Below are positions 21,049 through 24,769 of a DNA stretch of 51,029 nt, in pieces. The translations under genes and the position numbers were made by a program. A model generated the notes under the pieces. That model had not been told where the DNA came from. It was given only the letters and a program-made list of their open reading frames with translations, and searched no databases. The first letter of the stretch is position 1. Every line of letters begins with the position of its first letter. Origin of the DNA: an uncultured Opitutia bacterium (GTDB lineage: Bacteria > Verrucomicrobiota > Verrucomicrobiia > Opitutales > Opitutaceae); the NCBI GenBank assembly GCA_903896015.1, contig CAITWF010000099.1, forward strand, positions 1-51,029, read 5' to 3'.

Positions 21049-21180
21049 GGTCGCGTCGGTAGCGGGCGGGCGGGGGTTGTCAGCAGCGAAGGTGGGTGAG
21101 GTATTTATAGGCTCGCGGCGGTAGCTCTAGAGATCTTGTCTCAGAGAGCGGGCTCGTTCGGCCCGTTTCCAGTTTTGCCC

Positions 21181-21888
21181 ATGACTCCATCGGACTCTGC
21201 GACCACGCGCGTCGCGCCGGATTGGCGAATCTCGCTGCCGACGGTGCTGCTGATTTTTGGCGTCGCGCTGAGTTGCTCCACGGCATGTATCACGAGCGCA
21301 ATTGTGGAGCGTGCATCCAGTAAGATCGCGTCCGCGAATCAACGACGGGAGGTGCGCGAAAAAATTCATCAGATGCTTGAGCCGCTGCTGCCGCCGAGCG
21401 GAGCTGGTTCGCCGGAATTGGAAATAGGCGATGAGGATTCTCCCCGCCGGATCACGCTGACCGGACGGTATGCAGCCGGTTCAAGCGAACGCTTTTTCGC
21501 GGCGGTGCGCGCGCTTTACGGTTCGGTCTTAAGCTTTGACCGTGAGGTTGTCGCACAAATCTTCGATAACTCAAAGTCGCCGCCAGCCTTGCTCGCGACT
21601 GGCACGTTTCACCCGGCCTCAGAGCTAAAGGCGCGACTAACGCCCTTGCTTCCGTCAGCGGCCAATGTGGAGGGTGAAATCAGTCTGTCGGTGGTCGCGG
21701 AAGGCCAAGCGCGGATGATCGTTTTTGCTGATGGAAATTTTTCGTTTGAGGAGGCGAGGGAGTTTGCGGCCCACGCCGCCAAATTTAGGGAAGAGTTTTC
21801 TCCCGCTCCGAATATTTCGGTTTTCGTCAACGCGCCCATCCGCCGCGGCGTGCCGCAGAAACTGATCGGGCGCTTCGATTTTCCGTAA
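21181..21888 (+). CDS. Membrane-anchored protein of unknown function
   Basis: I do not recognise this family. The 235-residue protein has a single hydrophobic segment (residues 18-40, LPTVLLIFGVALSCSTACIT) after a short charged tail. A coiled region rich in Arg/Glu follows (43-62), then a soluble part with no cysteines and no obvious catalytic motif. The cysteines at the end of the hydrophobic segment could be a lipobox only if export is Sec/SPII-like; the preceding residues fit poorly. The ATG chosen follows the hydrophilic stretch; the frame is open 15 codons further upstream. It lies 39 bases before the Lgt-like gene and is probably part of the same transcript, which suggests an envelope role. 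Confidence 0.6.
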   Translation: MTPSDSATTRVAPDWRISLPTVLLIFGVALSCSTACITSAIVERASSKIASANQRREVREKIHQMLEPLLPPSGAGSPELEIGDEDSPRRITLTGRYAAGSSERFFAAVRALYGSVLSFDREVVAQIFDNSKSPPALLATGTFHPASELKARLTPLLPSAANVEGEISLSVVAEGQARMIVFADGNFSFEEAREFAAHAAKFREEFSPAPNISVFVNAPIRRGVPQKLIGRFDFP

Positions 21889-21927: not shown

Positions 21928-22740
21928 ATGACATATCCCGTTTATTTTCACGCCTTCGGGGTAAGCTCGCATCCGCACTTGGTCTTTGAGTCGTTGGGCT
22001 ATTTCGCCGGCGCACGATTTTATTTTGCGGCGCGACGAAAGGCGATCACAACGGGCGAAGGTGCGCTTACGCTGGAGAAAAATCTCTGGCTGCTCGTCGG
22101 CTGCGTCTTCGGCGCTTGGGCGGGCTCGAAGATTTTGGCGTGGCTCGAAATGCCGCAGCACTATCTCGCCATCGCGCGCGCGAACCCGCTCGCGCTCATG
22201 GGCGGAAAGACGATTGTCGGTGGTTTGCTCGGCGGGTGGGCGGGAATCGAGTTCGCGAAGAAACTTCTTGGCGTCATGCATTCGACCGGTGACGCGTTTG
22301 TCTGGCCGCTCGCGATCGGCACGGCGATCGGGCGGCTCGGGTGTTTCTTCACCGGGCTCGATGACCACACGTATGGGGTCGCGACCACGCTGCCGTGGGG
22401 CGTGGATTTCGGTGACGGCGTCGCGCGGCACCCGACTCAGCTCTACGAAAGCGCTTTTGTGCTCCTGCTCGCGACAGCGATCGAGATGGCTACGCGCGCG
22501 CGGGCACTGCCGAGCGGGGCGCGTTTCCGGCTCTACTTCGCCGGGTATTTTACCTTTCGTTTCGCCGTGGAATTCATCAAGCCACGAGAAACGCCGCTCC
22601 TCTCGCTGAGCGCGATCCAACTCGCGAGTCTCGTAGGCATCGCGCTGTCGCTCGTGACAATGCGCCGCCTCTCGGCCGGGGAAAAAATCGAGAATCTAAA
22701 ATCTAAAAGTTCTCATGGATCGTCCCTATCTTTACGCTGA
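21928..22740 (+). CDS. Lgt-like (prolipoprotein diacylglyceryl transferase family) membrane protein with divergent active site
   Basis: The 270-residue polytopic protein clearly belongs to the Lgt family: GGKTIVGGLLGGWAG (92-106), IGRLGCFFTG (134-143), RHPTQLYES (167-175) and EFIKPRETP. Canonical Lgt transfers diacylglycerol from phosphatidylglycerol to a lipobox cysteine. Against the E. coli enzyme as I recall it, the HGG histidine is Val97 here and the Asn of the RLGN motif is Cys139, while the Arg (136) is kept. A housekeeping role is therefore doubtful and another lipid-transfer reaction is possible. Its last 26 bases overlap the radical SAM gene, so the two are tightly coupled. This pairing suggests joint action on membrane lipids (inference). 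Confidence 0.85.
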   Translation: MTYPVYFHAFGVSSHPHLVFESLGYFAGARFYFAARRKAITTGEGALTLEKNLWLLVGCVFGAWAGSKILAWLEMPQHYLAIARANPLALMGGKTIVGGLLGGWAGIEFAKKLLGVMHSTGDAFVWPLAIGTAIGRLGCFFTGLDDHTYGVATTLPWGVDFGDGVARHPTQLYESAFVLLLATAIEMATRARALPSGARFRLYFAGYFTFRFAVEFIKPRETPLLSLSAIQLASLVGIALSLVTMRRLSAGEKIENLKSKSSHGSSLSLR

Positions 22741-24112
22741 GCTCACCAATTCGATTTGCTCGCACTGCCTGCGCAAGGTGGAGGCGAAGGTGTGCACCCA
22801 GGACGAGAAGGTGTTTCTCCACAAACGCTGTCCGGAGCACGGCAGCGAGCGCGTGCTGATTTCGACGGACGTCGATTACTGGCACCAGACGCGGCGTTTT
22901 CTGAAACCCGGGCAGATGCCGCGCGCGTTCAACACGCCGATTCGCTACGGCTGTCCCTACGACTGCGGCCTCTGCGCCGATCACGAGCAGCACTCGTGTC
23001 TCACGCTGCTCGAGGTGACCGACGCGTGCAATCTCTCCTGCCCGGTGTGCTACGCGGAGTCGTCGCCGAAGCGCACGACGCACCGGTCGCTCGCGCAGAT
23101 CGAGTTCATGCTCGATGCGATCGTGCGCAACGAAGGCGAGCCCGACATCGTGCAGATTTCCGGCGGTGAGCCGACGATTCACCCGCAGTTTTTCGAAATT
23201 CTCGACGCCGCGAAACGCCGTCCGATCAAGCACCTCATGCTGAACACGAACGGCCTGCGGATTGCGAACGAACCCGGCTTCGCCGAGAAACTTGCCGCCT
23301 ACGGCCCCGGCTTTGAAATCTATCTCCAGTTCGATTCGCTGCGCGCCGATCCGATACGGGCGCTGCGCGGGGCCGACCTGCTGGAGACGCGCCATCGTGC
23401 GCTGGAGCGGCTCAACGCGCTCAACCTTTCCACCACACTCGTCTGCACGCTCAAGCTGGGTCTCAATGACGACGAACTCGGCGCGATCGTCGATTTCGCG
23501 CTCACGCAACGCAGCGTGCGAGGCGTCACGCTCCAGCCGATCCAGCACGCCGGCCGCGTCGAGTCGTTCGACCCCTCGCGCGATCGGCTCACGCTCGGTG
23601 GCGTGCGGCAGAAACTGCTGGCGCAGACGAAGGTGTTCCGGCCCGACGACATCATCCCGGTGCCGTGTCACCCCGACTGCCTCGCGATGGGCTACGCGCT
23701 GAAAATCGGCGGCAAAGTCACGCCGCTCACCGGCATGATCCCGCGCGACACGCTGCTGCAGAGCGAGGGCAGTACGATCGTCTACGAGCGCAATCCGGAG
23801 CTTCGGGCCGCGGTGTTTAATTTGTTTTCCACGCATCACTCGCCCGACAGCGGAGCCGAGGCGCTCCGGCAGTTGCTCTGCTGCCTGCCGCTCGTGTCGG
23901 CGCCGAAGAGCCTGAGCTACGAAAATGTCTTCCGCGTGCTGATCATCCAGTTTCTCGACGCGCACAACTTCGACGTCCGCAGCGTCAAGAAGAGCTGCAT
24001 CCACATCGCGCACCCGGACGGACGGATCATTCCGTTCGACACGTTTAATCTGTTTTACCGCGACGGGAAGGAAGCGCGGTTGAAGGAACTGCAGGCGATG
24101 CACACCGCGTGA
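22715..24112 (+). CDS. Radical SAM protein of the Tes/MJ0619 type
   Basis: The 465-residue protein has an N-terminal metal-binding region (Cys15, Cys18, Cys39 in SICSHCLRK and CPEHG), an extra CPYDCGLC motif (80-87) and the radical SAM cluster CNLSCPVC (105-112). ISGGEPTIHPQFF and LMLNTNGL follow, as in the SAM-binding barrel. This cysteine layout is that of the archaeal MJ0619 group. Members include tetraether lipid synthase (Tes), which joins lipid tails by C-C bonds, and proteins annotated as pterin methyltransferases. Bacterial relatives have been proposed to make membrane-spanning lipids. The reaction here is inferred, not shown. It overlaps the Lgt-like gene by 26 bases and is followed at once by two small membrane proteins, which favours a lipid substrate. 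Confidence 0.88.
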   Translation: MDRPYLYAELTNSICSHCLRKVEAKVCTQDEKVFLHKRCPEHGSERVLISTDVDYWHQTRRFLKPGQMPRAFNTPIRYGCPYDCGLCADHEQHSCLTLLEVTDACNLSCPVCYAESSPKRTTHRSLAQIEFMLDAIVRNEGEPDIVQISGGEPTIHPQFFEILDAAKRRPIKHLMLNTNGLRIANEPGFAEKLAAYGPGFEIYLQFDSLRADPIRALRGADLLETRHRALERLNALNLSTTLVCTLKLGLNDDELGAIVDFALTQRSVRGVTLQPIQHAGRVESFDPSRDRLTLGGVRQKLLAQTKVFRPDDIIPVPCHPDCLAMGYALKIGGKVTPLTGMIPRDTLLQSEGSTIVYERNPELRAAVFNLFSTHHSPDSGAEALRQLLCCLPLVSAPKSLSYENVFRVLIIQFLDAHNFDVRSVKKSCIHIAHPDGRIIPFDTFNLFYRDGKEARLKELQAMHTA

Positions 24113-24114
24113 CT

Positions 24115-24408
24115 ATGAATGACCAAGCTCCTGAACCGTTCAATAACAAGCCGGAGCAGCCGACGCCAAAGTTGAGCTTTGGTGCCCAAGTATTGGTGGG
24201 ATTGCTGGTCGGTCTCGGATTTGGCATCGGGTCGGCGATCCTGAAATACAATGATTTTACGCTGTTGTATGCGAAGCTGCTTCTTCTCGCTGCCGTTTTG
24301 TTTTGCCTCGTGCCGAGGACACGCGGAGTCGGGGTTGGACTATTACTTGGGCTGGGTCTCTCGGTGTTAATTTTCATCGGGATATGCTTTGCAAATTTCA
24401 AGATCTAG
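24115..24408 (+). CDS. Small membrane protein following the radical SAM gene
   Basis: The 97-residue product has a hydrophilic, Pro/Asn-rich N-terminus (about 20 residues) and then three hydrophobic segments (roughly 22-42, 48-65 and 70-92) rich in Gly and Leu. I do not recognise a family. The ATG lies two bases after the stop of the radical SAM gene; a GTG six bases upstream overlaps that stop as GTGA and could be used instead, so translation is coupled either way. No catalytic residues stand out. The position suggests an accessory of the Lgt-like/radical SAM pair or simply a cotranscribed envelope protein. Confidence 0.55.
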   Translation: MNDQAPEPFNNKPEQPTPKLSFGAQVLVGLLVGLGFGIGSAILKYNDFTLLYAKLLLLAAVLFCLVPRTRGVGVGLLLGLGLSVLIFIGICFANFKI

Positions 24409-24430
24409 TTGGCGCCCGCGACGCTACCAA

Positions 24431-24769
24431 ATGAACGAACCTCCGCTGCTCCCTCCAAACGAGCCCCCGCTGCTTCCGCCGCCGGTTCCGCCTGTGCCGC
24501 CGCCGACCGAGCCGGATGGCGACAACGAAGGCTCCATTCTCGCGGGCGTGGGATATTGGGTGGCGATCTTGGTGGCGACCTTCACACTGCTTTCCACGAG
24601 CACGATTTTTCTCGCGCTACCGTTGGTCGCGATCGTCGCCGGGATAGTGTGGGTGGTGCGAAATGGGTGGAACCGGACCGCGACCGGCGCGACGATCGCG
24701 GTCCTGCTCACCCTCGGGTTGGTGCTCTTAATGTGGAGCATTTGCGGCAACTTTCACTACCAAGGCTGA
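24431..24769 (+). CDS. Small proline-rich membrane protein
   Basis: This 112-residue protein opens with about 40 residues dominated by Pro (PPLLPPNEPPLLPPPVPP), followed by an acidic stretch. Two or three hydrophobic segments come next (about 45-60, 60-78, 88-105). No family is recognised. Its architecture (a Pro-rich soluble head and Gly/Val-rich helices) echoes the preceding 97-residue protein, and the two genes are 22 bases apart, so they may be diverged partners. The Pro-rich head may bind a partner protein. The same-strand AraC-type gene starts 165 bases later after a gap in which I see no clear signal. Confidence 0.55.
   Translation: MNEPPLLPPNEPPLLPPPVPPVPPPTEPDGDNEGSILAGVGYWVAILVATFTLLSTSTIFLALPLVAIVAGIVWVVRNGWNRTATGATIAVLLTLGLVLLMWSICGNFHYQG

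Follow-up and report, generated by a model that had tools for sequence, protein, structure and literature searches.

The 51,029-nucleotide stretch analysed here (the window) is contig CAITWF010000099.1 of assembly GCA_903896015.1, from an uncultured Opitutia bacterium, and carries on its forward strand four closely spaced genes of a putative membrane system. An Lgt-family paralogue of 270 amino acids (P0001, 21928-22740), a predicted polytopic membrane protein scoring 88.1 bits with PF01790 (LGT; cut-off 24.9), is followed by a radical S-adenosylmethionine (SAM) enzyme of the Tes fold of 465 amino acids (P0002, 22715-24112), with Pfam scores of 82.4 bits for Radical_SAM and 63.5 bits for Zn_ribbon_HMPTM. 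The two open reading frames (ORFs) overlap by 26 nt (22715-22740). Downstream, on the same strand, two small membrane proteins (SMPs) are encoded: P0003 (97 amino acids, 24115-24408; alternative GTG start at 24109), in which six residues remain after Cys91 (codon 24385-24387), and P0004 (112 amino acids, 24431-24769; Pro-rich N-terminus, alternative TTG start at 24389), in which seven remain after Cys105 (codon 24743-24745). This is the layout given in an earlier reading of the letters alone (the original prediction), and the ORF calls match it. Since the same arrangement recurs across phyla, it is not attributable to chance.

The extent of that recurrence was assessed by a scan of named-species genomes, which gave at least 545 relatives of P0002, the best 80 of which were used (61-79% identity in the best segment). 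Record titles assign these to about nine phyla: Verrucomicrobiota, Bacillota (chiefly Paenibacillus and further Bacillales), Planctomycetota, Acidobacteriota, Cyanobacteriota, Bacteroidota, Omnitrophota, Melainabacteria-type bacteria and Pseudomonadota. Many of them are metagenome-assembled genomes (MAGs), for which mislabelling is possible. Of the 80 loci, 76 also encode an Lgt paralogue on the strand of the radical SAM gene; it overlaps the radical SAM start in 23 and lies no more than 100 nt upstream in 40 (63 together), the rest being placed at 101-500 nt (two), further upstream (seven) or downstream (four). The four loci where no Lgt is seen include two, L124 and L127, whose contigs start less than 70 nt from the radical SAM gene; at L109 and L133 more than 3 kb of upstream sequence is present with no Lgt paralogue, and these two also gave no SMP by the automatic rule described below.

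Genome sets defined by taxonomy gave the same picture. Among 132 genomes of the same order, 65 match P0002, nearly all through the radical SAM core only; full-length relatives occur in three (100, 77 and 59% identity), and a relative of P0001 adjoins each of them. Seven of 240 genomes of the window's phylum have a radical SAM match at E ≤ 1e-30, and the six best Lgt-profile matches (340-119 bits) share a contig with a Tes-like gene in six genomes out of six; the seventh radical SAM genome (G177) has an Lgt match of just 68.8 bits, on a different contig. In the Planctomycetota (199 genomes) the Lgt-profile matches of at least 110 bits share a contig with a Tes-like gene in 16 of 16 cases among the matches listed, a list that omits paralogues present at the loci of G732, G726 and G804 (95 bits). 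The lines for a strong paralogue were set at gaps seen in the scores, 119 against the next 109 bits in the window's phylum and 110 against the next 104 in the Planctomycetota. For radical SAM matches of at least 600 bits in the latter, an Lgt paralogue was found within flanks of up to 1.5 kb in 15 of 18 genomes. Twenty of 249 Bacillota genomes have a radical SAM match; an Lgt paralogue adjoins the gene in the three closest (930, 895 and 460 bits), and the other 17 (266-191 bits, TrsS-type) have Lgt matches of at most 109 bits or none, on other contigs or far off, the Lgt profile having been run on 40 of the 249 (20 with and 20 without a radical SAM match). "Bacillota" and "Planctomycetota" denote here the phyla to which the central genomes of these sets, from Paenibacillus and Aquisphaera, belong, and the window's phylum is taken as Verrucomicrobiota from its closest named relatives. 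A distant case is a plasmid of Mycobacterium branderi (31% identity), which carries an annotated Lgt-family gene, two small genes and the radical SAM gene. The pairing of the two enzymes, read originally from a single locus, is hence conserved in relatives.

The model of P0001 (predicted local distance difference test, pLDDT, 92.1) matches E. coli Lgt (5azb) with Z 13.9 and a root-mean-square deviation (rmsd) of 4.8 over 239 residues, the next fold reaching 6.9; against the NCBIfam lgt equivalog TIGR00544 the protein scores 48.7 bits, under the cut-off of 118.9. Residues were mapped by profile alignment to 5azb. P0001 shares with E. coli Lgt (5azb/5azc) the fold and the residues Arg136, Tyr207, Arg211, Glu174 and Glu215, which correspond to Arg143, Tyr235, Arg239, Glu202 and Glu243 of the E. 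coli enzyme. All 77 paralogues retain the lipid-pocket residues Arg143, Tyr235 and Arg239; Glu202 is present in 75 and replaced by Asp in two, and position 243 is Glu or Asp; the Lgt of L065, cut by a contig end, was counted in this tabulation and omitted from alignment A4. The paralogues differ from E. coli Lgt in lacking His103 and in having Cys for Asn146, Lys or Arg for Met100 and Lys for Arg246 (72/77). The replacement of His103 by Val97 (codon 22216-22218) and of Asn146 by Cys139 (codon 22342-22344) in P0001 had been proposed in the original prediction, and the profile alignment confirmed both, with Arg143 kept as Arg136. The cysteine is present in 77 of 77 paralogues; the substitution is not special to the unit, and Cys139 was dropped as a hallmark, since Cys also occupies that position in 24 of 24 Lgt-family proteins without a radical SAM link, picked by a profile that has Cys there.

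The residue that does distinguish the linked proteins is the basic one at E. coli position 100, Lys94 in P0001 (codon 22207-22209). All 76 close paralogues in which the column is filled have Lys there, and all 16 of the more distant radical-SAM-linked ones have Lys or Arg, against none of the 26 other Lgt proteins tabulated, which include the second Lgt of the same genome and part of E. coli Lgt. The amide of Met100 in E. coli Lgt touches the sn-2 carbonyl of the lipid (PMC4728403). The same genome encodes a separate Lgt (G000:C109:22002-22748) that scores 210.3 bits, compared with 88 for P0001, and has the His and the Asn in place, so that the second lgt which the original prediction made a point of is present. 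Another, higher-scoring Lgt-family gene, of at least 147 bits, was found in 25 of 26 further carrier genomes, the exception being a MAG; the residues were read in the copy from the window's own genome. Apart from the unit, Lgt-family proteins with Cys at E. coli position 146 were seen in three phyla (L155-L168, L203-L209, L262-L264); some have His103 and many have Tyr or Phe there, and they appear to be a further Lgt variant.

The third component, the SMP, is new in this analysis: the original prediction had noticed the two small membrane proteins of the window, and did not recognise in them a conserved partner with a C-terminal cysteine. By the sequence comparisons, SMPs are a conserved component characterised by a near-constant Cys near the C-terminus, and they track the Lgt paralogue. 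The main cluster comprises 37 ORFs from 36 loci, of 82-144 amino acids and mostly directly 3' of the radical SAM gene, in which the final helix often terminates in NAACFG. Other loci have small membrane proteins of unrelated appearance at that place; in Paenibacillus and Saccharibacillus (eight loci) the SMP is instead encoded just before the Lgt gene and has a zinc-finger-like part in front. The common trait of all of them is a Cys close to the C-terminus, where the last helix ends. An automatic rule, which sought a small transmembrane ORF with a terminal Cys beside the gene pair, found one in 67 of 80 loci, and directly downstream ORFs with at least two helices have the terminal Cys in 47 of 48 cases, compared with 3 of 32 ORFs taken as controls from other parts of these loci, statistics which overstate the case because the rule was framed after the sequences had been seen and the loci are related. 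The tie to the Lgt paralogue was then read in two further sets. Among Bacillota and other loci (second set) an SMP accompanies two of three Lgt-bearing loci and none of 24 Lgt-less Tes-like loci; among Planctomycetota (third set) the figures are 10 of 19 and 0 of 11, or, pooled, 12 of 22 and 0 of 35. After removal of four loci that repeat the 80 (L176, L216, L218, L220) and of one duplicate (the overlap of L196 and L198), 10 of 18 loci with the Lgt paralogue and 0 of 34 without it have an SMP (p = 2.8e-6).

The distribution of charges in the SMPs is strongly asymmetric. Over 48 SMPs (two sequence clusters plus P0003, P0004 and that of L063) the segment 15-30 residues before the Cys contains 137 Lys/Arg and nine Asp/Glu, and the tail after the Cys, nine residues long on average, eight and one, respectively; 47 of the 48 have no charge in the 14 residues preceding the Cys. 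The excess of Lys and Arg on that side would therefore, following the positive-inside rule, place the Cys at the outer face of the membrane. P0003 and P0004 were considered as members of SMP cluster 2 by sequence, an assignment abandoned for marginal scores; they are kept as SMPs by place and shape only. Ten SMPs were compared with Pfam and NCBIfam, and none scored above a family cut-off save for a B-box zinc finger in L120. In L107, L108, L117, L120 and other Paenibacillaceae, the small protein encoded before the Lgt gene has a Cys-rich front (resembling a B-box in L120) and a single helix that terminates in ICG, and replaces the downstream SMP.

The best solved relative of P0002 is MJ0619/GDGT-MAS (E 5.3e-63), that is, Tes. 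The P0002 model (pLDDT 86.5, weak at 344-359 and 389-393) superimposes on Tes (7tom) with Z 47.1 and rmsd 2.4 over 406 aligned residues at 31% identity, the next fold giving Z 20.0; the structural neighbours after Tes include the peptide maturases SuiB and SkfB, MoaA and viperins. Viperin-type PADLOC matches (46.5 bits, residues 100-191) were discarded, as they reflect the shared radical SAM core only. P0002 has in common with Tes (7tol/7tom) the whole fold, the rubredoxin-type CX2CX20CX2H site (C15/C18/C39/H42), the N-terminal Cys3+His cluster (C80/C84/C87/H90, with His90 taken as the His ligand by alignment and motif roles from PMC9433317) and the radical SAM Cys3 (C105/C109/C112). The ligand positions of all three sites are invariant in 81 of 81 family members, and so are the SAM-contact residues Arg210 and Gln268 and the loop residue Arg275 (Tes) and four further cysteines (C318, C389, C390, C428), of which C318, C389 and C390 are new with respect to Tes.

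The C-terminal part is where P0002 and Tes diverge. The position of MJ Cys455 is Ser, Thr or Ala and that of Cys470 is Asp in 81 of 81 members, while that of Cys338 remains Cys in 62 of 81. These three cysteines are presumed to be the ligands of the C-terminal [Fe4S4] cluster, given their conservation in 19 of 19 Bacillota TrsS-type relatives; linked relatives in G555, G320, G322 and M. branderi also retain all three, and the radical SAM proteins of G269 and G175 have lost all of them. In Tes, the C-terminal cluster is believed to hold the tail radical. Tyr459 and Met439, the latter counted among the ligands of that cluster, are dispensable in Tes, the M439A enzyme being still active (PMC9433317); both residues are also altered in the P0002 family, Met439 being Met in 54 of 81. 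With two of the three presumed ligands lost, carbon-carbon coupling by the Tes route cannot be assumed for P0002, and the case for tail joining is weakened, though the cluster may possibly have been rebuilt with new ligands.

The grouping with Tes proposed in the original prediction therefore stands in part. Fold and N-terminal motifs are those of Tes; on the other hand P0002 scores below both NCBIfam cut-offs, with 325.7 bits for TrsS (NF045646; cut-off 490), its best model, and 273.5 bits for Tes (NF045702; cut-off 450), and lies across a supported branch from MJ0619. In a tree of 65 radical SAM rows, all 39 Lgt-linked proteins fall in a single branch of 43 rows (support 97/86), whose other four rows are three without an Lgt link, two of which represent a single gene, and one that is unassigned; MJ0619, at the root, and the Bacillota TrsS-type proteins are outside it. 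The Lgt-link label changes twice on the tree, compared with a mean of 20.1 changes after shuffling. The tree used 30 of the 80 loci, with L133 in neither label group, L176 and L177 omitted, L198 repeating L196 and MJ0619 as the sole Tes; long branches make the places of L175, L214, L215, L213 and MJ0619 unsure. The statement that the protein belongs to a group able to join lipid tails is not supported as it was made, given the branch, the score below the Tes cut-off and the loss of Cys455 and Cys470. The Bacillota TrsS-type proteins differ from P0002 in lying on other tree branches, in keeping Cys338, Cys455 and Cys470 (19/19) and in having no adjacent Lgt paralogue. Two Bacillota proteins, of L181 (G572) and L191 (G465), score above the TrsS cut-off, with 517 and 547 bits. 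Mss, a membrane-spanning lipid synthase reported from Bacillota, is treated as the bacterial enzyme in PMC13274423, and its source work is Sahonero-Canavesi 2022, as cited in PMC13274423 and PMC11604127. TrsS and Mss may be two names for a single family.

How these proteins could act together can be put forward tentatively. That the unit acts on membrane lipids is the most natural interpretation, and to that extent the remodelling unit of the original prediction is retained, with its linking of acyl tails weakened. An Lgt fold with its lipid pocket intact, together with a membrane partner that presents a Cys where Lgt meets its substrate, suggests the transfer of lipid to that Cys. The reading we lean towards, with less than even confidence, is that the four genes represent a membrane system of three components, in which the SMP is the substrate. 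The SMP would end a few residues past a Cys at the outer end of its last helix; the Lgt paralogue would keep a phospholipid in the former phosphatidylglycerol pocket and pass a diacylglyceryl, or other lipid, group to the Cys; from the cytoplasmic side, the radical SAM enzyme would take a hydrogen off a lipid tail and alter it. The role of the SMP as substrate, lipid transfer without His103 and the nature of the radical step are what we infer from these comparisons. SMPs are small, variable in sequence and sometimes multi-copy (two in the window, two in M. branderi), and this fits a substrate role, as substrates often vary. A wider version, to which we give less credence, is that of a second lipoprotein pathway: in bacteria of many phyla, a membrane protein would receive lipid at a Cys close to its C-terminus by means of an Lgt without His103, and a Tes-fold enzyme would then alter or cross-link the attached lipid. 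The outcome would be a lipoprotein with a modified, perhaps membrane-spanning, anchor.

Several observations weigh against lipid transfer to the SMP, in addition to the overstated statistics of the terminal Cys. His103 is absent in 76 of 76 paralogues (Val in 71, Leu in four, Ile in one), and every tested substitution of this residue abolishes the activity of E. coli Lgt (PMC4728403), so that ordinary thiol activation must be gone. The strict lipobox [LVI][ASTVI][GAS]C precedes the SMP Cys in none of 48 SMPs, on which ground the SMP as a true lipobox lipoprotein was rejected; a relaxed pattern devised for this analysis fits 42 of the 48. P0003 and P0004 score just 9.1 and 5.9 bits with the main SMP profile, which is marginal. 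No SMP was found by the automatic rule in 13 of 80 loci, three of which (L063, L093, L131) show such an ORF on inspection, and at nine of the 19 Planctomycetota loci with an Lgt paralogue none was seen within 1 kb. Conversely, among the 80, an SMP occurs in two of the four loci without a seen Lgt, L124 and L127, those with truncated contigs, and short flanks (L193, L228, L239, L245) make it possible that an SMP or Lgt was missed at some of the Lgt-less loci. Finally, the relatives of P0002 from haloarchaea and M. vanbaalenii are paired with a methyltransferase and have no Lgt.

Nearly as likely as transfer to the SMP is a lipid-modifying complex in which Lgt transfers nothing. The radical SAM enzyme would couple or change the tails of free phospholipids, with the Lgt paralogue as a non-transferring presenter of outer-leaflet phospholipid and the SMP as a structural subunit; the possible products would be membrane-spanning, cyclised or branched lipids. 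The close superposition on Tes, which binds two phospholipids and couples their tail ends (PMC9433317), speaks for such a synthase, as does an Lgt paralogue that keeps its lipid pocket yet loses His103, as a presenter would, and that is basic at the lipid-contacting Met100 position (contact: PMC4728403) in all linked paralogues tabulated. The absence of two of the three presumed ligands of the cluster thought to hold the first tail radical in 81 of 81 proteins, and of all three in G269 and G175, counts on the other side, and a near-constant terminal Cys is unexpected in a mere anchor. Moreover, the carriers among the best 80 relatives include cyanobacteria and many Bacillales, which are not known to make membrane-spanning lipids. 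A further rival is a maturation similar to that of ribosomally synthesised and post-translationally modified peptides (RiPPs), in which the radical SAM enzyme would modify the SMP peptide itself, for instance by a thioether at the Cys, and the Lgt paralogue would be a membrane chaperone or a later lipid adder. Partner genes that are short, variable and at times duplicated, next to a strongly conserved enzyme, would fit such a system, and SuiB and SkfB are, along with MoaA and viperins, among the next structural neighbours after Tes; nevertheless, going by charge, the SMP Cys would lie on the membrane face opposite to a cytoplasmic enzyme, the SMP goes with the Lgt paralogue and is found at none of the 35 Lgt-less Tes-like loci of the two further sets, and the Pfam scan of P0002 lists no peptide-recognition domain. 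We consider RiPP-like maturation improbable.

Least probable of all is that the radical SAM protein is a methyltransferase for pterin (HMPTM-type) or another small molecule, with Lgt as an incidental neighbour. The N-terminal zinc ribbon does carry the HMPTM name in Pfam, and some relatives are paired with methyltransferases or with a PEMT/ICMT-like membrane methyltransferase; but Lloyd et al. could not corroborate the earlier findings on MJ0619, whose hydrophobic pocket holds lipids and was judged unlikely to accept methanopterin (PMC9433317), and the linkage to a lipid-pocket membrane protein across phyla counts against this reading as well. As to the grouping with pterin methyltransferases raised in the original prediction, P0002 has the Tes fold, in a comparison that included no sequence proven to be a pterin methyltransferase.

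The unit looks like an undescribed way to attach or alter membrane lipids. The original prediction knew of no bacterial system of this composition, and no description of a unit of Lgt paralogue, radical SAM enzyme and SMP was found among the titles and abstracts listed from the open-licence PMC literature. The nearest report concerns Pseudarthrobacter single-cell genomes, in which radical SAM and prolipoprotein diacylglyceryl transferase genes occur together on about 3.5 kb and are missing in one of four otherwise very similar genomes; in the passage concerned it is given solely as a strain difference, with no function proposed (PMC12010503). This pair is likened to the unit by gene description, and its presence or absence fits an accessory unit. 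PMC8939145 and PMC7641849 mention "diacylglyceryl transferase" and "radical SAM" in an unrelated context. A list of 456 bacterial Tes homologues was published by Zeng et al., who suggested, without a test, the synthesis of branched glycerol dialkyl glycerol tetraethers (brGDGT) (PMC8941075); according to later work the activity of bacterial Tes homologues is unconfirmed, yet the homologues are used to infer makers of membrane-spanning lipids (PMC11868695). The present comparison sets apart a large branch of bacterial Tes homologues that has a constant membrane partner, in most cases also a small protein, and an altered C-terminal cluster site, so that genes of this branch should not count, untested, as evidence for tetraether-like lipids. 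The unit occurs in genera with named isolates (Paenibacillus, Brevibacillus, Nostoc), and offers a named candidate acceptor residue.

Some loci depart from the common arrangement. Contig C39 of G555 (L178, L196, L198) contains three genes for Tes-like radical SAM proteins. An Lgt paralogue and an SMP-like ORF adjoin that at 241793; at the other two, near 277-280 kb, there is no Lgt match. An in-frame TGA flagged in a G555 relative was considered as selenocysteine and dropped, the translation being open to the terminal stop. A gene for a PEMT/ICMT-like membrane methyltransferase is inserted between the radical SAM gene and the Lgt paralogue in L169 (6039-8779, G269) and L170 (6362-9175, G175). 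In L213 and L214, from plasmids of M. vanbaalenii and Salinirubellus, respectively, which encode radical SAM relatives of 38% and 34% identity, neither Lgt nor SMP was found, and a methyltransferase-domain gene comes directly after the radical SAM gene. In the window itself, a 250-amino-acid ORF with no assigned function is located upstream of the unit (21136-21888, forward strand), and no counterpart of like size was seen in coarse gene maps of L063 and L064, the two named loci closest to it; this ORF stops 39 nt upstream of the Lgt-like start, and co-transcription with the unit is possible.

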